Below, piece after piece: positions 25,595 to 47,809 of a stretch of 60,271 nt of DNA. A program made the position numbers and the translations under genes. The stretch spans positions 1 through 60,271 of the forward strand of contig JAFPZF010000049.1 in the NCBI GenBank assembly GCA_017417385.1, in the 5' to 3' direction. The stretch is from Bacteroidales bacterium. GTDB lineage: Bacteria > Bacteroidota > Bacteroidia > Bacteroidales > Marinilabiliaceae. The notes beneath the pieces are model-generated. The model did not search any database. It saw only the letters and a list, made by a program, of their open reading frames with translations, and was not told where the DNA came from. The first letter of the stretch is position 1. Each line of letters begins with the position of its first letter.

Positions 25595-25642
25595 GACTCG
25601 CGCGCCTTGACTTTGTCTTCATTCCTCACGTTGACTCCGTCG

Positions 25643-26119
25643 ACTTTTCTCACGCTCGGCAGAACGAGCAAGCTCGTTCTGCACTCGCTCAATCGAAAAG
25701 TTCGGCAATTTGTGCAAGCACATTGCTCTCGCTTAATCGGAATGTTGACTTCGCCTCATGTGCTCACGCTCGGCAATAGGAGCAAGCTCATTGACTAGCG
25801 TCTTACTTTCTCACGTTAGCTTCGCTGACTTTTCTACCGCTTGGCATAACGAGCAAGCTCGTTCTGCACTCGCTTAATCGAAAAGTTCGGCAATTGGAAC
25901 AAGTTCCATTGCACTCGCTTAATCGAAAGTTTGCTCTCGCTTAATCGGAATGTTGACTTTGTCTTCATTCCTCACGCTCGGCAATTTGTGCAAGCACATT
26001 GCTCTCGTTTAATCGGAATGTTGGCTTCGCCTCATGTGCTCACGCTCGGCAATAGGAGCAAGCTCCATTGACTAGCGTCTTACTTTCTCACGCTCGGCAA
26101 TTGGAACAAGTTCCATTGC
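25643..26119. repeat. Array of eight related hairpin units with a conserved AA loop
   Basis: Core palindromes at 25659-25682, 25705-25726, 25773-25793, 25844-25867, 25890-25912, 25981-26002, 26049-26070 and 26097-26119. Each is GCA + variable arm + AA + complementary arm + TTGC or CTGC. Four arm types occur (GAACGAGC, TTGTGC, AGGAGC, GGAAC), each with its matching partner. They are framed by (c)acgctcggc on the left and ctcgcttaatcg on the right. Units 1 and 4 have outer arms ACTTTTC/GAAAAGT. A segment of about 110 bases (25702-25815) recurs at 25978-26092. No gene is seen in 25093-26273. Confidence 0.88.
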
Positions 26120-26273
26120 ATTCGCTTAATCGAAAGTTTGCCCTCGCTTAATCGCACAAGTGAAAAACCTAATTTCTAGAAGCCTCCTTCTGTAAGGTAT
26201 GTATGGAATAAGATAGATCCCGGCCGGAAGGCTGGGATTTTTTAGTGGGTTGGAGGGAAGGGGAGTAAGAAAA

Positions 26274-28892
26274 CTAAAGCCAATCAAAGGCTCTACTGTT
26301 TAAAAGACGTATTCTGTCTTCGATTTCTTGAGGAAGGGAGTCGCACTCGTAAAACGCAGAATCACCGATCGAGGTGAGGGAGTCGGGCAGGGATATGGAC
26401 TTGAGGCTGTAGCAGGAGGAAAACGCAGAATCACCGATTGAAGAGAGGGTGTCGGGCAGGGAGATGGACTGGAGGCTTTGGCACATGTAAAACGCAGAAT
26501 CACCGATCGAGGTGAGGGAGTCGGGCAAGAAGATGGACTTGAGGCTACTGCAGGAGGAAAACGCATAATCACCGATTGAGGTGACGGAGGCGGGGACGGA
26601 GAAGGAAGTCACGTCCGAAGGAACGTATATTAGCGTAGTCTTGTTCTTGTCGTAGAGAGCTCCATCATCACCGACAGAGAAATGAGGGGACGAACAAGAA
26701 ATGCGAAGTGAACAGCCAATGAATGGATTTCCATTAATCGAGGTGAGGGAGTCGGGCAGGGAGATGGACTGGAGGCTTTCGCAGTAGTAAAACGCATAAT
26801 TACCGATCGAGGTGACGGAGTCGGGCAAGGAGATGGACTGGAGGCTTTTGCAGTTGTAAAAAGCATGATTTCCGATTGAGGTGAGGGAGTTGGGCAGGGA
26901 GATGTACTGGAGGCTTTCGCAGCCTATAAACGCATCACCTATCAAGGTGAGGGAGTTGGGCAGGGAGATGGACTGGAGGCTTTTGCAGCTGGAAAACGCA
27001 GCATTTCCGATTGAGGTGAGGGAGTCGGGTAGGGAGATGGACTGGAGGCTACTGCAGCCGCCAAACGCAGAATTTCCGATTGAGGAGAGGGTGTCGGGTA
27101 GGGAGATGGACTGGAGGCTTGAGCAGTACATAAATGCAGAATCTCCGATTGAGGAGAGGGTGTCGGGCAGGGAGATGGACTGGAGGCTTTCGCAGTAGGA
27201 AAACGCAGAATCTCCGATTGAGGTGACGGAGGCGGGGACGGAGAAGGAAGTCACGTCCGAAGGAACGTATATTAGCGTAGTCTTGTTCTTGTCGTAGAGA
27301 GCACCAACACCGTCGACGGAGAAATGAGGTGACGAGCAAGAAATGCGAAGGGATAGTCCTCTGAATGGGTTGATGCCAATCGAGGAGAGGGAGTTGGGCA
27401 GGGAGATGGACTGGAGGCTACTGCAGTCCCAAAACGCATAATCACCGATCGAGGTGAGGGAGTCGGGCAGGGAGATGGACTTGAGGCTACTGCAGTAGGA
27501 AAACGCATAATCACCGATTGAGGTGACGGAGTCGGGCAGGGAGATGGAGTGGAGGCTACTGCAGTCCAAAAACGCATGATTTCCGATTGAGGTGACGGAG
27601 TCTGGTAGGGAGAATGAAGTCACGCCAGAGGGAACGTATATTAGCGTAGTCTTGTTCTTGTCGTAGAGAGCTCCATCATCACCGACAGAGAAATGAGGGG
27701 ACGAACAAGAAATGCGAAGGAATAGTCCTCTGAATGGGTTGATGCCAATCGAGGTGAGGGAGTTGGGCAGGGAGATGGAGCGGAGGCTGTCGCAGCCGGA
27801 AAACGCATCATCACATATAACTTTGCAGCCGGACTTGACGGTGTAGTTGGTTATATATCCCTTAGTCCACTCTAGTAAGCGTTTGCCGTCGGGACTATAG
27901 AGGACTCCGAACTCGTCCGATACGCCAGCTTTTCTGTCCTCGGCGGTGACTTTTGTGGAAAGGAGTTCTTCGACAGGGATACGCTCGGGGCGGTCGAGGT
28001 TGAGGAGACGGAAGGAGACATGAGAGAGGTCGCCTCGGGACAGGGCGAGCAAGAAGAGGGCGAAACACTTGTCGAGCTCGGGGTCGCCGGAGGGGAACTC
28101 GTTGCGGAGGAAGGCGGAGTGGCCTGGGTCTCGGTAGTCGGCATCGGAGAGGAGGAGACGGTCGTTGGCGCCGTAGGAGGAGAACCAGGAGGGGTTGAAG
28201 GCGAGGGCGCGGAGAGAGAGGAGTATGCTTGCTACGGCGAAGTCGTCGATATGCTCGTCGAAGGTAGAGTCAGGGGTGCGACTCGGGTGGCGGAAGTCCG
28301 GGGTGCCAGTCTCGCGGGCCTTCTGACCAGCCATCTTAGGAACGTACATGCCGTCGTAATCCACAAGGACGAGGTTGCCCTCGGGGGTGACGAGGATGTT
28401 ATCTGGTTTCATGTCACCGTGGGCAAAAGGTTGCGAGAGGAGCCATGCGCTCATACGGCTGAACTGATAGGCGAGGAGAGCGAGGGCGTTGGAGTCCGAG
28501 ATATGTTCGCGGACGTAGCGGTCCAGCGGCACGCCCTCTATCCAGTCCATGAGGAGGACGGGGAACTCAGTCTCCGTGGTAGCCGCGCTATCGACAAAAA
28601 TCTCCTTCTCGAGGAAGCGGATAGGGGTGAGGAAGGTCGAGGAGACGAACTCCAGTTCGTCGGCTATCAGACGGTAGCTCTCGCACCGATTGGGCTGATC
28701 CTTCAAGAAGCATTTCAGGGCATGGAGCTTGCCAGTCTTCTTATTGCGCATCTTGAAGACTACGGCGAAGTTGCCGCTACTCAAGATGGGGTGGTTGTTG
28801 GAATCGAGGACTGGCTCCAGGTCGGTCAACTGGTCGAAATCCTCGGGGGTGCAGATGGAGGAGATATAATCTGAGATAGTGGGGTAAAGCAT
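26274..28892 (-). CDS. Eukaryotic-like protein kinase fused to BspA-type leucine-rich repeats
   Basis: 872 residues from the ATG at 28892. An upstream in-frame ATG at 29159 would add 89 residues that run through a dispersed repeat, so it is rejected. Residues 35-270 look like a protein kinase: SSGNFAVVFK, Lys60 (HALKCF), catalytic loop HGDMKPDN (158-165), DYDG (178-181) in place of DFG, and TGTPDFRHP in the activation segment. Residues 345-855 are some 20 LRR_5/BspA repeats of about 23 residues (SISLPDSLTSIGDYAF), broken by near-identical spacers containing DKNKTTLIYVPS. No signal peptide, so it is predicted to be cytosolic, unlike most BspA proteins. Function unknown. Confidence 0.85.
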   Translation of the reverse strand: MLYPTISDYISSICTPEDFDQLTDLEPVLDSNNHPILSSGNFAVVFKMRNKKTGKLHALKCFLKDQPNRCESYRLIADELEFVSSTFLTPIRFLEKEIFVDSAATTETEFPVLLMDWIEGVPLDRYVREHISDSNALALLAYQFSRMSAWLLSQPFAHGDMKPDNILVTPEGNLVLVDYDGMYVPKMAGQKARETGTPDFRHPSRTPDSTFDEHIDDFAVASILLSLRALAFNPSWFSSYGANDRLLLSDADYRDPGHSAFLRNEFPSGDPELDKCFALFLLALSRGDLSHVSFRLLNLDRPERIPVEELLSTKVTAEDRKAGVSDEFGVLYSPDGKRLLEWTKGYITNYTVKSGCKVICDDAFSGCDSLRSISLPNSLTSIGINPFRGLFLRISCSSPHFSVGDDGALYDKNKTTLIYVPSGVTSFSLPDSVTSIGNHAFLDCSSLHSISLPDSVTSIGDYAFSYCSSLKSISLPDSLTSIGDYAFWDCSSLQSISLPNSLSSIGINPFRGLSLRISCSSPHFSVDGVGALYDKNKTTLIYVPSDVTSFSVPASVTSIGDSAFSYCESLQSISLPDTLSSIGDSAFMYCSSLQSISLPDTLSSIGNSAFGGCSSLQSISLPDSLTSIGNAAFSSCKSLQSISLPNSLTLIGDAFIGCESLQYISLPNSLTSIGNHAFYNCKSLQSISLPDSVTSIGNYAFYYCESLQSISLPDSLTSINGNPFIGCSLRISCSSPHFSVGDDGALYDKNKTTLIYVPSDVTSFSVPASVTSIGDYAFSSCSSLKSIFLPDSLTSIGDSAFYMCQSLQSISLPDTLSSIGDSAFSSCYSLKSISLPDSLTSIGDSAFYECDSLPQEIEDRIRLLNSRAFDWL

Positions 28893-29299
28893 AGTAATAG
28901 TCGGTTGATGGTTCAGAGTATAGAGGAGTGGGCGAATGCGAAGATAAGAAAGATTTCTGAAAGAGGGAGGGAAGAATAGGAAACGACGGGAGAGATGCTG
29001 GTCGTGGAGAGACGTGGATGGCGTAGAGGTTAACATAAGACGGGAAAAGGCTAATACAGGTATAACATTTGTCTTAGAATTCCGAAACAATTCTGTATAG
29101 AAACCGTAGAATTCGTAAGAGAAATAAACACAGCTAAGAGATAATGTGGAATCAAACAAAACAGGACAGAGAAATGGTTAACCTTATCAGGGCTAACGTA
29201 AGACTAATCCTCTTGACTTTGGGGATGAGTAAGAAGGATAGTGCGTCCCGTGGTTCTAAGACTCGCAACTCGTAATACATAATTCGTAACTATATAACT
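28893..29299. promoter_or_regulatory. Divergent intergenic region between the kinase-LRR gene and the giant gene
   Basis: About 400 bases separate two divergent starts and should hold both promoters, but no box matches the consensus well. It contains one copy of the dispersed repeat (29029-29066). A/T-rich just before 29300. Confidence 0.4.
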
Positions 29300-41887: not shown

Positions 41888-42651
41888 CATTTCTGGCAAA
41901 AATGGAACGATCGAGGCGGCTACAGTGGGGTGTGATGATACAGACTCTGCTAGTAGTTGTCGTAATGTTGTTGACATACAGTTGCAGTGGAGACGATGAC
42001 GGGCGGATACCATTGAAGGGTGAGGTCACGTATGAGTTGATGTTGTCTGACGACATCACGAGCAGCACGGAGTTCGGGTCGTTTCTGCCGCACACGGTGA
42101 AGGGGGTGTATGACACGTCTAACGTCAAGTTGATGGTTAGTGCGCCGATGGGTCTAGTGAACGTCAGTTTCGTGCTTGGGGAGAAGGAGGACTTCGTGGC
42201 GGTAGACTTTGACGAGGCTAAGCTACTGCTCACGATGGCGGAGTTCTTCAATCAGGACGAGGCGATGACGATAGCAGAGAACCTGACGGTAACGGAGGAG
42301 CCTGAGCTCGTGAACATATCGGGGTACATGTCGAGGCACGTGTCGGTCACGCCGAGCATAGAGGACCAGTCGAACAGCAGGATAGATGTCTTCTTTGTCC
42401 CGTTCACAGGCAGGGACATCAGCAACTTGTCGGCAGTCGACTTGTTCAAGGAGAAGCTGGCACACAAGAAGTCGTCGCCAGGAGTTGTCACGGCAGTAAA
42501 CATCAGGATGGGTGACAGCAACATCATGATGGTCGCGAAGAAGATAAGGCCACTGGACGGGATAACGAAGAAAGACTTCCAGCGACCGCCGGGCTTCATC
42601 AGGGCGAATCACAAGGATTTGCTGTCGATGATGGATATTGTATTGAACTGA
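41884..42651 (+). CDS. Lipoprotein of unknown function
   Basis: 255 residues from the ATG at 41884, which overlaps the preceding stop (atga). A hydrophobic segment of about 16 residues (VMIQTLLVVVVMLLTY) ends in SC, followed by SGDDDGR, an acidic surface-export-like signal. The rest looks beta-rich with no domain I can name. Translational coupling to an aminotransferase is odd and may be only an operon convenience. An earlier in-frame ATG at 41821 would lie within the aminotransferase and bury the signal peptide. Confidence 0.75.
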   Translation: MTFLAKMERSRRLQWGVMIQTLLVVVVMLLTYSCSGDDDGRIPLKGEVTYELMLSDDITSSTEFGSFLPHTVKGVYDTSNVKLMVSAPMGLVNVSFVLGEKEDFVAVDFDEAKLLLTMAEFFNQDEAMTIAENLTVTEEPELVNISGYMSRHVSVTPSIEDQSNSRIDVFFVPFTGRDISNLSAVDLFKEKLAHKKSSPGVVTAVNIRMGDSNIMMVAKKIRPLDGITKKDFQRPPGFIRANHKDLLSMMDIVLN

Positions 42652-43046
42652 GAGAATCGTTAGAGAGGGAATCTCTATAAATTGCTTTTTCTGCGTTGGA
42701 GTAGCCTTTGAAATCCTCATGTAGCTACGCTGACCTTTCTCACGCTCAGCATAACGAGCAAGCTCGTTCTGCTCTCGCTTAATCGAAAGGTTACCTACAG
42801 TACACTCCGGTATTCAAAAGCAACTCCGCCTAAAAAAATCTAATTTCTAGAACTTCCCTTTAAGTACCCCAGTAGATGTTATTGAATTTGTGAGGTCTTG
42901 GAGGTCGTGAGGACCTGAGGGGACAATTAAGAAAAATGGGATGCGGGTCGCAGTGATTGCGGCGGCGCAGAGAGAAACGAACGAACACACACACAAGGTG
43001 TCGCGTTGCGACAGAGGAGCGATGCGACAAGAAAAGTCAACGAAAT
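42652..43046. repeat. Intergenic region with one hairpin unit of the dispersed family
   Basis: A core palindrome at 42749-42772 (GCATAACGAGC-AA-GCTCGTTCTGC) with outer arms ACCTTTC (42733-42739) and GAAAGGT (42785-42791). It is nested between sequences like the 25555-25594 palindrome (aaatcctcat on the left, actccgg on the right). Downstream, ctaatttctagaa (42839-42852) also follows the 26 kb array (near 26171). No gene is seen here; the frame upstream of the ftsK ATG is not thought to be coding. Confidence 0.8.
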
Positions 43047-45599
43047 ATGGCCAAGAAGACAAATAATAAGCCAACGCGGGAAACGCGCACGGCAGGAGCA
43101 CAGCAGATGTCGGAGTCGTCCGTCAGTGCCTTCAAGTTTGGGATAGGCATAGTTCTGTTAGTTGCGGGTGTGCTATTATTCATAGCAATAGTGTCCTTTC
43201 TGTTCACAGGGGGGGCAGACAGGAGCATATTTGACTTGTCGCTGGGAGAGTTGATCAGCAATACAGACATCGAGGTGCGCAATCCGATAGGGAAGGTTGG
43301 TGCGTGGCTGTCTGACATGCTGGTGACGAACGGGATAGGGTTGATGTCGTTGAGCGTCCCGTATTTCATAGTAGTTTTTGGACTCTGGATGCTTGGGTTG
43401 CGAGCCGTCTCGTTGCTCAGGCAGTTAGGCTGGTGCATAGGAGTGTCGATATGGGGCAGTGTCGCGTTGGGCTTCATCTTTTTCAAACTGTCGAGTAGGT
43501 CATATCTGTTGATGGGAGGCATGCACGGGTTCTATGTGTCGAAGTGGCTTTCGAGTGCGATAGGGCCAGTCGGGGCGTTCTGTCTGATATTCGTCGTCCT
43601 CTTGCTAGTCTTGACGACGAAGGTTGCGAGACTGAGAGAAGGCATAATGAGACTACTGTCGCGGATGCGAGTGCCGGGAATCAAGATGCCGCAGATAGCA
43701 TTTACAGACGGGAGGGAAGTCGAGATAGACGAGCTCCGTCGGAAGTCAGATGAGAGCGTGCGAGAAGTTAGAGGAGGAGATGACGAGGATGACGACGACG
43801 AGGATGACGAGGAGGGGGATGATGACGACGAACAAGGGAATGACGAAGGAGGCGACAAGGGGAGAGATGGCGTAGGCGTCGTCGGGGTGACGATAGACAG
43901 GGAGAGAAGCGAGGAACCCGAAAGGAACGAGAGGAACGAGAGGGAGATCGTCGGAAAGCCGATAGAAGTCACAGTCGGAGGAGACGAAGAGCCCGATGAC
44001 AAGCTGCGGACGATAGATATCACAGTCGGCAAAGATGATGAGATAGATACGACGGCGGTTATGGGCCCGACCGAGAAGTACGACCCGACGTCGGACCTGG
44101 CGCACTATGAGTTCCCGACGCTCGATATGCTTGCAGATCATGGGAGCAACGTGCCTCAGTTCAGCAAGGAGGAGGTGCAGGCCAATAATGACAGGATAGT
44201 ACAGGCCTTTGAGAATTTCGGCATCAAGATAGACCAGATCAAGGCGATAGTAGGGCCGACCGTGACGCTATACGAGGTTGTCCAGGCGCCGGGCGTCAGG
44301 ATCAACAAGATACAGGCGCTACAGGACGACATAGCGCAGAGCCTTGCTGCTCAGGGCATAAGAATCATAGCGCCGATACCGGGGAGGGGCGTGATAGGCA
44401 TAGAGGTGCCCAATGCGGACCCACAGGTCGTCAGCATGAAGTCCGTATTGAGTTCGATGAAGTTCCAGAACAGCACGTATGAGTTGCCGGTTGCGATAGG
44501 GAAGACAATATCAAACGAGACCTTCATCTTTGACTTGGCGAAGACGCCGCACCTACTCGTAGCAGGTGCGACGGGACAGGGCAAGTCGGTCGGCATAAAT
44601 GCCATCATCACGTCGTTGCTGTACAAGAAGCATCCGAGCCAGTTGAAGTTCGTCTTGGTGGACCCGAAGATGGTCGAGTTCAGTCCGTATAAAGTGCTGG
44701 AGAAGTTCTATCTAGCGAAGATGGAGAGCGAGGAGGCCGCAGTCATCACGGACATGAGCAAGGCGCGAGCTACGCTCGAGAGCCTGACAGTCGAGATGGA
44801 CGACAGGTACAAGTTGCTGATGGATGCGAAGGTGAGGGACATCAAGGAGTACAATGCCAAGTTCATCGACAGGAGGCTAAATCCGGAGAAGGGTCATAGG
44901 TACATGCCGTACATCGTCGTCGTCGTGGACGAGTTTGCGGACCTGTTCATGACCGTCGGCAAGGAAGTAGAGAAGCCGATAGCGAGGATAGCGCAGAAGG
45001 CGAGGGCAGTCGGCATCCACATGATACTGGCGACCCAGAGGCCGTCGGCGAACATCATAACGGGCGTGATAAAGGCCAATTTCCCGTCGAGGATAGCGTT
45101 CAAGGTGAGCCAGATGGTCGATTCGAAGACCATACTCGATCAGAGTGGTGCGCAGCACTTGGCGGGCAAGGGTGACATGCTCGTGCAGCTAGCGGGTGAC
45201 ATGGCGATGCAGCGAGTCCAGTGTGCGTATGTCGATACAGACGAGGTCGTCAGCATAACGGAGCACATAGAGCATCAGGTCGGGTATGAGTCGGCGTACA
45301 TGTTGCCGGATTGCGAAGTCGGGGAAGACGGACAAGTGACGGGGCCGGTAGATATGGACCCAGCGAAGTTTGACAGCATAATAAAGGACGTCGCGCGGAT
45401 GGTCGTAAGTTCGGGCAATGGTTCGACGAGCAACATACAGAGGATATTTGAGATAGGGTATAACAGGGCGGGGAAGATAACCGACCAGCTCGAGAGGATG
45501 GGGGTTGTATCGCCTCCGACGGGACCGAGGAAAGACAGGAACGTCTTGGTTCAGACAGAGACGGAGCTGGAGCGGATATTTACAGCCTTCGGGCTGTAG
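43047..45599 (+). CDS. ftsK: DNA translocase FtsK
   Basis: A septum-anchored motor that pumps chromosomal DNA during division and activates XerCD at dif. 850 residues from the ATG at 43047 (MAKKTNNKPTRET); the longer frame from a TTG at 42957 adds only a basic leader. Four or so N-terminal membrane helices lie within residues 25-195, then an acidic linker at about 245-280 (runs of D and E). The motor carries Walker A GATGQGKSVG and the VVVVDEFADL Walker B. The C-terminal gamma winged helix covers residues 775-850 (GYNRAGKITDQLERMGVVS), which reads KOPS. The next gene duplicates this gamma domain. Confidence 0.96.
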   Translation: MAKKTNNKPTRETRTAGAQQMSESSVSAFKFGIGIVLLVAGVLLFIAIVSFLFTGGADRSIFDLSLGELISNTDIEVRNPIGKVGAWLSDMLVTNGIGLMSLSVPYFIVVFGLWMLGLRAVSLLRQLGWCIGVSIWGSVALGFIFFKLSSRSYLLMGGMHGFYVSKWLSSAIGPVGAFCLIFVVLLLVLTTKVARLREGIMRLLSRMRVPGIKMPQIAFTDGREVEIDELRRKSDESVREVRGGDDEDDDDEDDEEGDDDDEQGNDEGGDKGRDGVGVVGVTIDRERSEEPERNERNEREIVGKPIEVTVGGDEEPDDKLRTIDITVGKDDEIDTTAVMGPTEKYDPTSDLAHYEFPTLDMLADHGSNVPQFSKEEVQANNDRIVQAFENFGIKIDQIKAIVGPTVTLYEVVQAPGVRINKIQALQDDIAQSLAAQGIRIIAPIPGRGVIGIEVPNADPQVVSMKSVLSSMKFQNSTYELPVAIGKTISNETFIFDLAKTPHLLVAGATGQGKSVGINAIITSLLYKKHPSQLKFVLVDPKMVEFSPYKVLEKFYLAKMESEEAAVITDMSKARATLESLTVEMDDRYKLLMDAKVRDIKEYNAKFIDRRLNPEKGHRYMPYIVVVVDEFADLFMTVGKEVEKPIARIAQKARAVGIHMILATQRPSANIITGVIKANFPSRIAFKVSQMVDSKTILDQSGAQHLAGKGDMLVQLAGDMAMQRVQCAYVDTDEVVSITEHIEHQVGYESAYMLPDCEVGEDGQVTGPVDMDPAKFDSIIKDVARMVVSSGNGSTSNIQRIFEIGYNRAGKITDQLERMGVVSPPTGPRKDRNVLVQTETELERIFTAFGL

Positions 45600-45728
45600 G
45601 AAGGGGCGAGTCGGAGGTCAGCTAATACAAGCAGTACTCTTCAATCCGCCGTCGTGGAGCGGAGAGAATAAGCGGACATGGCATGATCCTCGGAGAAGAG
45701 CGTCGCTAAAAGATAAAGATAGAAAGAG

Positions 45729-46301
45729 ATGACACAGAGAACAGAGAAGATAGACAGCCTAGTGAAAGATGTCGCGAGGATGGTTGCGAGTTCGGGCAAT
45801 GGTTCGACGAGCAACATACAGAGGATATTTGAGATAGGGTATAACAGGGCGGAGAACATAGCGAAGCAGTTGGAGGAGATAGGAGTACTCTCGTTGCCGG
45901 CGGGTCCGGGTATGAAACGCGACGTGCTGGTAAGGACAGAGGCAGACTTGGAGTGGGTGTTCAGAGCCTTTGAGGGGAGGCAAAAGACAGAGAGCGGCAC
46001 GACTGGGAGCATAGAGAAGCAGATGGAGAGCATACTCGGAGGAGACGGACAGGACAGGGCGGAAGAGGAGCTGGACAGCCTAGTGAAAGACATCGCAAGG
46101 ATGGTCGTAAGAGAGGGGAATGGCTCGACGAGCAACATACAGAAAGTCTTCGATATAGGCTATAATCGAGCGGGGAAGATAACCGACCAGCTCGAGAGGA
46201 TGGGGGTCGTATCGCCTCCGACGGGAGCGAGGAAAGACAGGAACGTCTTGGTTCAGACAGAGACGGAGCTGGAGCGGATATTCAGAGCCTTCGGGCTGTA
46301 G
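45729..46301 (+). CDS. Stand-alone protein of two FtsK gamma (KOPS-reading) domains
   Basis: 190 residues with no motor, linker or membrane part. Gamma copy 1 covers residues 7-82 and copy 2 residues 114-190, joined by a charged linker. Both keep the recognition-helix core (STSNIQ, GYNRA). At DNA level copy 1 shares an almost unbroken ~65-base block with ftsK (45788-45850 against 45406-45468), and copy 2 shares the last ~110 bases of ftsK almost exactly, so the duplication is recent or kept alike by gene conversion. Predicted to bind KOPS-like DNA and perhaps XerD; it might compete with or assist FtsK (inference). The start region resembles that of the following gene. Confidence 0.85.
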   Translation: MTQRTEKIDSLVKDVARMVASSGNGSTSNIQRIFEIGYNRAENIAKQLEEIGVLSLPAGPGMKRDVLVRTEADLEWVFRAFEGRQKTESGTTGSIEKQMESILGGDGQDRAEEELDSLVKDIARMVVREGNGSTSNIQKVFDIGYNRAGKITDQLERMGVVSPPTGARKDRNVLVQTETELERIFRAFGL

Positions 46302-46348
46302 ACGGGTCAGGGGAGAAAGTCTCCCAGAAGTGCTAAAGAAGAAAAACA

Positions 46349-46381
46349 TTTGCAAATACAGAATATAAGTTGTAGTATTGC
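46349..46381 (+). promoter_or_regulatory. Promoter of the ECF S-component gene
   Basis: TTTG (46349-46352), 20 bases, TAGTATTG (46373-46380). It matches the Bacteroidota spacing with one mismatch in the -7 box. Confidence 0.6.
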
Positions 46382-46473
46382 AAAAAGTTGCAGTGGAGCT
46401 AAAGAGCAAAAGTAGCGCCCCACATCGAGGATCTCGGTATAGAGAGCCGCTAAAAGAGAAGGATACAAAAGAG

Positions 46474-47049
46474 ATGAAACAGAGAGCAGTAAACTTTGGA
46501 GTCGTCGGGGTCTATAGCATAATGTATGTGTTTATAGCCTTTCTGGTGGCGTTTCTTGGATTCCTAACACCATTCGGGTGGGTCTATTCGTCGGTTTTCA
46601 CAGCGGTACTTGGAGCATTTCCGTATTACAAGGCGACATCAGCGTTTAGGAGTTTTGGCGTGTCGGCAATAATGATGACATTTTTTGCGTTGTTTCTGTT
46701 AGTGTCCGACGAGTCGGACTGGGAACGAGCCGTGATATTAGTAGGGAGTGGCGTCTTGAGTGACCTTGTACGTATGTTGTTAGGGAACACCAAGGCGATA
46801 GGTGCAGTAATCTCGTATCCGATCATGGCGATAGGCAACATAGCGTGGCCTTTGCCTATGTGGACAAATCCGGAGTTGTATTATGAGCTGACAGCAGAGG
46901 AGCTCGGATACGAGTATGCGAAGGTTCTCAAGACCTATATGACGTGGGACACGTTTAGCATAGTCGTCATATTGACAATCGTAAGTGCGGTGGTTAGTGC
47001 ACAGTTGGCAGTACACTTTGTCGACAGCGGCCTGACGAGGTCAAAATAG
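46474..47049 (+). CDS. MptD-type ECF transporter substrate-specific (S) component
   Basis: A 191-residue, highly hydrophobic protein with five or six predicted membrane helices, resembling the MptD/Trep_Strep family of putative ECF S components (N-terminal VNFGVVGVYSIMYV and the PIMAIGNIAWPLPMW helix are typical). S components bind a vitamin or similar ligand and need an EcfAAT module, which is not nearby. The start is the ATG at 46474 (MKQRAVNF); upstream codons to 46378 overlap the promoter. Its ~90-base leader is duplicated in front of the gamma-domain gene. Confidence 0.75.
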   Translation: MKQRAVNFGVVGVYSIMYVFIAFLVAFLGFLTPFGWVYSSVFTAVLGAFPYYKATSAFRSFGVSAIMMTFFALFLLVSDESDWERAVILVGSGVLSDLVRMLLGNTKAIGAVISYPIMAIGNIAWPLPMWTNPELYYELTAEELGYEYAKVLKTYMTWDTFSIVVILTIVSAVVSAQLAVHFVDSGLTRSK

Positions 47050-47136
47050 CGCGAGGCGTGAGGCCTCGGAGCCAGGTGATAGAAGTCCGAAGACAAAGAA
47101 AGCGGGTAAAAAAGTGTGTGAAGTCCAAATAAGCAT

Positions 47137-47145
47137 TAACTTTGC
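47137..47145 (+). promoter_or_regulatory. -7 box for the DedA operon
   Basis: TAACTTTGC, 26 bases before the GTG at 47171. It serves the run dedA, nitroreductase, plsC, prfC, GNAT. Confidence 0.65.
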
Positions 47146-47170
47146 AGGCTAAATAGCAAAAAAGTAGACA

Positions 47171-47809
47171 GTGGAGAGTGTAAGCTTCATAGCCTGGTGT
47201 CTTGATCACCTAAATTATTGGACGATAACATTGTTGATGACGATAGAGAGTTCGTTCATCCCATTTCCAAGCGAGGTTGTCGTTCCGCCGGCGGCGTATA
47301 GGGCGGCGAGCAGTCCGGACCTGAATGTATTTCTGATAGTATTATTTTCGACCATAGGAGCGGATCTTGGTGCGGTGATAAACTACGTATTGTCTCGCAC
47401 GTTAGGGCGGTTGATAGTGTATAAGTTTGCGGACAGCAAGCTCGGGCATCTATTACTACTAGATTCGGAGAAAGTCGAGAAGGCGGAGAAGTATTTTGCG
47501 GAGCATGGTGCCATATCGACGTTTGTCGGGCGGTTGATACCGGCGATACGACAGTTGATCTCGATACCGGCGGGGCTTTCGAAGATGCATTTTGGGAAGT
47601 TCATCTTTTTCACCACCCTCGGAGCCGGGGTATGGAACAGCATATTGGCGGCAGCGGGTTACGGGATGGCTCATGTCATGCCGGAGGAGGAGATGATGAG
47701 AAAGGTGACGGAGTATAACACAGAGCTGAAGATAGTGTGCGGGGTGCTGATTGTCGCGGGGGCTGTATGGCTATGGTACAAGCACGGGCGCGCGCAGAAA
47801 GCGAAATAG
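47171..47809 (+). CDS. DedA-family membrane protein
   Basis: A 212-residue inner-membrane protein of the DedA/SNARE-associated family. It has ESSFIPFPSEVVVPPAA (the conserved loop with Glu and Pro), then GADLGAVINYVLSRTLGR, then the FVGRLIPAIRQLISIPAG re-entrant segment with the conserved Arg residues. DedA proteins act in undecaprenyl-phosphate or phospholipid flipping and membrane homeostasis (family knowledge). The GTG start is the only one giving the full first helix. First gene of its operon; plsC, two genes on, also concerns membrane lipid. Confidence 0.9.
   Translation: MESVSFIAWCLDHLNYWTITLLMTIESSFIPFPSEVVVPPAAYRAASSPDLNVFLIVLFSTIGADLGAVINYVLSRTLGRLIVYKFADSKLGHLLLLDSEKVEKAEKYFAEHGAISTFVGRLIPAIRQLISIPAGLSKMHFGKFIFFTTLGAGVWNSILAAAGYGMAHVMPEEEMMRKVTEYNTELKIVCGVLIVAGAVWLWYKHGRAQKAK

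Follow-up and report, generated by a model that had tools for sequence, protein, structure and literature searches.

A double-gamma gene downstream of ftsK

The window analysed here is the whole stretch of 60,271 bp, which constitutes one entire contig of a 97-contig draft genome of a Bacteroidales bacterium (completeness 98.6%, contamination 0.4%). Judged by the relatives of its FtsK and gammas, the host belongs in Bacteroidota, which agrees with this assignment. The plus strand of the window carries ftsK (43047–45599), encoding a protein with 4TM, alpha, motor and gamma parts, the last of which (45369–45599) is the donor or partner of the copies described below. The listed open reading frame begins with a TTG at 42957, and the MAKK start at 43047 is the more likely one. 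A gap of 129 bp separates the end of ftsK (45599) from a gene of 190 codons (45729–46301, plus strand), which runs from ATG to TAG with no internal stop or frameshift (the first-pass annotation had likewise called the frame intact), and which is followed by a gene encoding a Trep_Strep membrane protein (PF09605; 46474–47049, plus strand; the listed frame starts with TTG at 46378).

The product of the 190-codon gene had been described from the letters alone as a gamma-only protein, and this description held. Against Pfam it matches FtsK_gamma (PF09397, E 5.4e-38) in two stretches, and no other family at a threshold of E 0.001. The whole protein scores 129 bits and the single gamma copies 75 and 58.3 bits, each above the gathering score of 30.6, while the RecA-type motor (PF01580) and the alpha domain, both present in the ftsK product, are missing. 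In an NCBIfam scan the FtsK model remained far below its cut-off, and a single hit to ArgJ was at the level expected by chance. The protein can be divided into: (i) gamma1 (45750–45977, aa 8–83), (ii) a linker of 31 codons (45978–46070) and (iii) gamma2 (46071–46301, aa 115–190), the re-derived limits lying within one residue of those proposed before (7–82 and 114–190). The letters GYNRA are present in both domains. A PF09397 search of the whole genome revealed three gammas in total, all at this locus (45372–45551 within ftsK, 45750–45932 and 46068–46253), and no stops occur within any of them. No Rfam family reached its gathering score in the region 42600–47200, and no promoter site was found in a scan of 45560–46500 with the sigma-70 type consensus, which may not be the type used by the host phylum.

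Inferred local duplication and mosaic structure of the gamma copies

At the nucleotide level, the ftsK gamma (g0) differs by 26% from gamma1 (g1) and by 12% from gamma2 (g2), and g1 and g2 differ from each other by 31%. In a gamma tree (49 rows, few columns) the three constitute one clade with support of 100/99. Similarity extends to the flanking DNA. The intergenic region and leader preceding the double-gamma gene, together with its ATG and first codons (45624–45744, plus strand), match the leader and initial codons of the gene that follows (46362–46489, plus strand) at 89 of 119 ungapped columns with six gaps, a score that was reached by none of 1000 single-letter shuffles. The match is strongest over 57 columns (E 6e-11); upstream of these it is weak when scored separately, with 19 of 1000 shuffles doing as well. 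The linker DNA is weakly similar to two stretches of the ftsK linker (6 and 2 of 1000 shuffles, respectively). When the whole genome was queried with the 106-bp leader, three weak hits (E 0.6) came back but the known partner at 46362 did not, so this search is not a proof of leader uniqueness.

Because the three gammas form one clade and the leader with the first codons matches that of the next gene, the gene is, judged by sequence comparison, of local birth within its lineage, from the host's own ftsK gamma. The simplest history would be a single tandem duplication of a segment comprising the ftsK gamma, the intergenic region and the beginning of the next gene (leader plus first codons), by which a gamma would have come to lie behind an existing start codon. 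The second gamma could then have arisen by internal duplication or by a second copying out of ftsK, and subsequent recopying between ftsK and both copies would have created a mosaic. Such a history would exemplify a route of gene birth in which a terminal domain is copied together with the leader of the next gene. In the corresponding loci of ten genus mates, the first open reading frame after ftsK encodes 210–220 aa in eight cases and about 300 aa in two, so the DNA following ftsK has a different arrangement here. The position of the gene between ftsK and the Trep_Strep gene, and the clustering of its gammas with that of the host ftsK, disfavour a phage origin.

Acquisition with a mobile element was also considered and is unlikely, since the only three gammas of the genome adjoin and form one clade.

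Other local tandem duplications occur in the window. An element of about 70–80 bp is found at 42714–42792 (upstream of ftsK), 25623–25702 and 25817–25887, the copies being 85–89% identical.

The gamma copies are indeed mosaics. A 64-bp tract of gamma1 (45789–45852; codons 14–35, covering alpha2, the loop and GYNRA, and ending just past the latter) is identical to ftsK 45408–45471, synonymous sites included. In gamma2, the tract from codon 34 to the stop (46170–46301; the C-terminal half of the recognition helix, the wing and the C-terminus) matches ftsK 45468–45599 at 128 of 132 bp, with four differences. Among the 76 sites that vary between the three copies, g0 and g1 are grouped at 15 consecutive ones (reached in 0 of 20,000 permutations), g0 and g2 at 21 (P 0.0001) and g1 and g2 at 4 (P 0.002). 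Outside the tracts dS amounts to 1.16 (g0–g1, 3' part) and 1.23 (g0–g2, 5' part), and inside the g0–g2 tract to 0.07. That the parts differ in age agrees with gene conversion, in either copying direction. The first-pass annotation had taken the undiverged core for a mark of constraint. However, since the core of gamma1 sits in the DNA-identical tract, synonymous sites included, its intact GYNRA looks like the outcome of recent recopying (gene conversion), and the argument from the core is not supported.

Distribution among genomes, viruses and plasmids

A search for PF09397 was performed in 747 distinct genomes, including this one (degenerate gammas would escape it). Positive genomes, again including this one, were 14 of 15 in the genus, 68 of 71 in the family, 288 of 295 in the order and 389 of 392 in the phylum. 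A gamma-only pair was found in this genome and in none of the 746 others searched, among them all 14 genus mates (one of which, 74% complete, shows no gamma). Two or more gamma matches (E up to 0.01 or 0.001) were detected in 22 genomes, of which this one and G358 have three, while the remaining twenty have two, placed on different contigs or widely separated. FtsK identity to the genus mates compared is 49–57% and the end branch of the host FtsK is the longest of 18 (0.63), so absence of the pair elsewhere says little about recent evolution. G358 encodes a 741–742-aa protein (L098:43-2268) with two adjacent gammas, both with altered recognition helices, and, by eye, an AAA-type ATP-binding motif.

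With the 190-aa protein as a query, no relative was found in genome_contigs or viral_contigs, two collections that may omit records close to that of the window. An FtsK query gave at least nine loci, the best segment among the matches listed reaching 46%. The gamma alignment matched 199 viral loci, 80 of which were kept; each of these has one gamma ORF and none has two (the scan patterns required GYNRA or the alpha2 stretch, and ORFs were called by a simple script). The viral gamma ORFs are often short (29 of 80 under 300 aa, 19 under 150 aa). The 190-aa protein matched 168 phage and 51 plasmid records, and six of those among the matches listed (20 per set) were examined. These are: (i) a plasmid protein of 201 aa whose canonical gamma is preceded by a doubtful one, (ii) an actinobacterial protein of 722 aa ending in two gammas, (iii–v) three annotated FtsK translocases (the one scanned has motor, alpha and gamma) and (vi) a phage-labelled contig that has no annotation and carries an ORF resembling FtsK. 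The unannotated Staphylococcus phage records OR850357 and OR844993, also among the matches listed, have gamma matches of 49.6%, and one of them is only 1.6 kb long. In the titles and abstract openings of the open PMC papers that the literature searches listed, no double-gamma protein beside ftsK was found.

Function or drift

It had been claimed that the gene is in use rather than in decay. The rival view is that it is an evolutionary by-product, i.e. a functionless, drifting partial tandem duplicate of ftsK kept similar by recombination, which is quite possible, although we lean against it. Pairwise dN/dS across the domain, a comparison already suggested for each gamma copy in the first-pass annotation, is well below 1: 0.31 (g0–g1), 0.20 (g0–g2) and 0.23 (g1–g2). 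In the unconverted parts it equals 0.12 (gamma2, 5' part) and 0.33 (gamma1, 3' part), which speaks against a by-product. The outcome of drift simulations depended on where the changes are placed. With all changes on the copy, drift was rejected (P 0.011 for the gamma1 3' part, 0 of 5000 for the gamma2 5' part and 0.004 for the gamma1 5' edge), but neutrality stood when half of them were assumed to sit silently on ftsK (P 1.0, 0.80 and 0.67, respectively). An open frame could also have survived by chance, as the probability of no stop arising under drift in the three unconverted parts is 0.32, 0.62 and 0.90. Frameshifts argue the other way: the leader copy has accumulated six gaps, five of frameshifting length, whereas the 190-codon gene has neither a frameshift nor a stop. 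The 164 unconverted columns of gamma1 contain no frameshifting indel, where the leader gaps predict 3.45 if half of them arose in the copy (P 0.03) and 6.89 if all did (P 0.001), assuming equal indel origin in leader and gamma.

The two domains differ when their changes are set against a conservation profile of 82 gammas (66 distinct) from the fetched loci (GYNRA present, at least 68 aa, E < 1e-15). The 9 substitutions in the unconverted part of gamma2 tend away from conserved columns (P 0.039 and 0.055), as do all 11 (P 0.024 and 0.027; two fall in columns without data from others), and gamma2 thus seems constrained. The 20 substitutions in the 3' part of gamma1 are drift-like (P 0.26 and 0.40; for all 24, P 0.13 and 0.20), which favours the by-product view, as do the occurrence of the pair in a single genome, the further local tandem duplications in the window and the copied promoter region, which appears degraded by eye against what we take to be the consensus of the phylum.

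Taken together, selection on the double-gamma gene, chiefly on gamma2, is moderately supported, and function appears likelier than decay, again mainly for gamma2. The earlier claim of use can therefore be kept in a weakened form, use being somewhat likelier overall and the 3' part of gamma1 being drift-like. The gene is real, locally born and probably, though not surely, functional.

KOPS-reading and XerD-facing residues

According to passages of PMC2680272, residues R1300, E1303 and E1306 of the FtsK gamma (E. coli numbering throughout) contribute to KOPS recognition. Passages of PMC5052618 name R1289 as the most influential of the FtsK residues, report that residues 1289–1297 attached to XerC suffice to stimulate XerCD (far less than the whole gamma does) and infer that a gamma is unable to hold KOPS and XerD simultaneously. 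In the 66 distinct gammas, most of which belong to FtsKs, position 1289 is R in all 66, 1300 is R or K in 65, 1303 is D or E in 66 and 1306 is E in 65. The residues at 1289, 1300, 1303 and 1306 are R, K, D, E in the host FtsK, R, N, K, E in gamma1 and K, K, D, E in gamma2. Hence gamma2 has all three KOPS-reading residues (K1300, D1303, E1306) in the host FtsK state and gamma1 differs at two of the three. In the activating stretch 1289–1297, gamma1 agrees with the host FtsK at 9 of 9 positions and gamma2 at 6 of 9, with R1289K. Of the earlier statement that the recognition core is intact in both domains, the GYNRA letters stand, but gamma1 departs at 1300 and 1303, and gamma2 has K at 1289, a position occupied by R in all 66 gammas compared. 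Among the 80 viral gammas, K1289 occurs in 3, N1300 in 2 and K1303 in 0, so the first two changes need not mean much.

These residues bear on the first-pass proposal of a two-headed KOPS binder that competes with FtsK loading, taken here as a pair of equal readers that would fill two of the three subsites for gamma in a KOPS. GYNRA in both gammas agrees with this, as does the binding of one KOPS by three gammas, each touching a part of it (described in passages of PMC5052618 and PMC5357621). However, the combination of N1300 and K1303 in gamma1 runs counter to near-invariant columns and K1303 is absent from the viral gammas, so two equal readers are improbable.

The pattern is rather suggestive of a complementary split, in which gamma1 would retain the activating peptide and have lost KOPS-reading residues, and the converse would hold for gamma2, with a mild change from R to K. 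This split is mostly produced by the positions of the two tracts, and hypergeometric tests of it (P 0.024, 0.24, 0.12 and 0.62) are not significant alone.

Two Xer-type recombinase genes were found in the genome (322 and 256 bits), both below the XerD family cut-off. The best XerD candidate (L112:1480-2388) has R, D, T, R and D at positions E119, Q123, I127, E184 and Y187 of E. coli XerD, and keeps E183 (W188 and H257 were left out of this comparison). It thus lacks the five inspected gamma-contact residues, although position 1289 of gamma is R in all 66 gammas compared, and the gamma–XerD interface in the phylum may differ from that of E. coli.

The wing of the ftsK gamma (45513–45542) has an extra residue and is unusual for the family, and G001 and G003 deviate there in a different manner. 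KOPS reading may be shifted in the lineages of the host and of G001/G003. The octamer GGGNAGGG occurs 18 times on the plus strand of the window and 0 times on the minus strand, with 13 of the 18 at one repeat array; outside it, counts of 5 and 0 versus simulated 3.9 and 0.9 give no signal of KOPS polarity. The 13 plus-strand octamers at 26255–27772, of which 12 lie within a repeat-protein ORF (26274–29159, minus strand), result from repeated SLPD/SLPN codons in this ORF. By eye, the encoded protein has a kinase-like domain and leucine-rich repeats.

Proposed role of the double-gamma protein

The reading that we tentatively favour is that the protein is a lineage-specific, motor-less paralogue of the FtsK gamma acting as a KOPS-anchored adaptor or as a loading competitor. 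It would be made at a low level via read-through from ftsK. Gamma2, with the KOPS-reading residues and wing of the host FtsK, would sit on KOPS-type sites, and gamma1, hardly able to read KOPS likewise, would be tethered nearby by the flexible linker, where it would add a further weak contact to DNA or dock the partner of the alpha2-loop-GYNR surface (XerD in E. coli). In this way the protein could reduce or mark the KOPS sites open to FtsK loading or, alternatively, bring the activating surface of gamma to XerCD without translocation, and so may tune chromosome sorting at division.

In favour of an adaptor or competitor are the intact gamma-only frame, the host clade, the leader duplication, the mosaic tracts and the absent frameshifts, the rejection of drift with all changes on the copy, and the sparing of conserved columns by gamma2. 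The stimulation of recombination by the XerC-attached peptide (in passages of PMC5052618), the 9/9 and 3/3 residues of gamma1 and gamma2 and the presence of two Xer-type genes point in the same direction. Against it stand the confinement to one of 747 genomes, the survival of drift with half of the changes on ftsK, the changes of gamma1, which are not steered away from conserved columns, the non-significant split between heads, the differing contacts of the XerD candidate, the sub-cut-off scores of both Xer genes and the lack of a sigma-70-type site. A more specific version, in which gamma2 reads KOPS, gamma1 touches the recombinase or the motor and gene conversion keeps this adaptor in step with ftsK, is unlikely; if true, two jobs of the gamma surface that one gamma cannot do at once would be divided between tethered heads.

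A role at the DNA level, with the copies serving as a recombination cassette for diversifying or repairing the gamma of ftsK, is very unlikely. The mosaic tracts common to the copies and ftsK would suit it, as would the unusual wing of the host FtsK gamma, which scores 74 bits against 96–104 in most FtsK gammas of the other genera in the family. Nevertheless, recopying can have run from ftsK to the copies only, with no sign that ftsK received letters, and the reading frame is preserved. An assembly artefact, conceivable where the window is a whole contig of a 97-contig draft, can be dismissed as extremely unlikely, since copies differing by 12–31% in DNA are unexplained by a misjoined repeat and completeness and contamination values are good.

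Comparison with known systems

Among the closest counterparts of the proposed adaptor or competitor is the gamma of the host FtsK, a member of the same family (PF09397) that forms one clade with both copies and shares DNA-identical tracts with them. The 190-aa protein differs from this FtsK in having no 4TM, alpha or motor part, in its tandem gammas, and in N1300/K1303 of gamma1 and K1289 of gamma2. Single-gamma phage proteins (PHROGs 22882, 13700 and others, to which matches were found) are likewise motor-less, but none of the 80 kept from the 199 loci has two gammas, and they lie on viral contigs instead of next to the ftsK of the host.

Another small gamma protein is encoded by the 4.4-kb mobilizable Enterobacter cloacae plasmid pSZECL_c (NZ_KU302805; L075:2890-3495). 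This 201-aa protein, annotated as FtsK, has a canonical gamma and shares 30% over 185 columns (BLASTP) with the 190-aa protein. Its first gamma-like match (6.5 bits) is not significant and was missed by Pfam. Only one of 260 matching plasmid records, namely pSZECL_c itself, covers 80% of the protein, which is possibly used for plasmid multimer resolution.

Accessory gammas outside ftsK are also present within the genus. These are: (i) a DUF4236-gamma protein (G001), (ii) a gamma behind an AAA_15 fragment (G011) and (iii) proteins of 334–335 aa (G009 and G010), all of them longer, located elsewhere in the genome and with one significant gamma each. The G001 protein (684 aa; L053:6416-8470) has DUF4236 and a C-terminal gamma, which falls together in the tree with the gammas of the G001/G003 FtsKs (95/94). 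Since it groups with the FtsK gammas of its own sub-clade, capture of a gamma from the lineage's FtsK recurs independently in the genus, and together with the double-gamma gene it would represent repeated capture within one genus. A 998-aa DUF4236-gamma-AAA protein was seen by Pfam at L070:5206-8202.

Finally, laboratory fusions XerC-gamma and XerD-gamma, as described in passages of PMC5052618, demonstrate that gamma activates XerCD without the motor. They are engineered, whereas the 190-aa protein carries no recombinase; if made and KOPS-binding, it would be a natural motor-less gamma beside ftsK, with which the effects of KOPS occupancy and of XerD activation in a cell could be studied separately.
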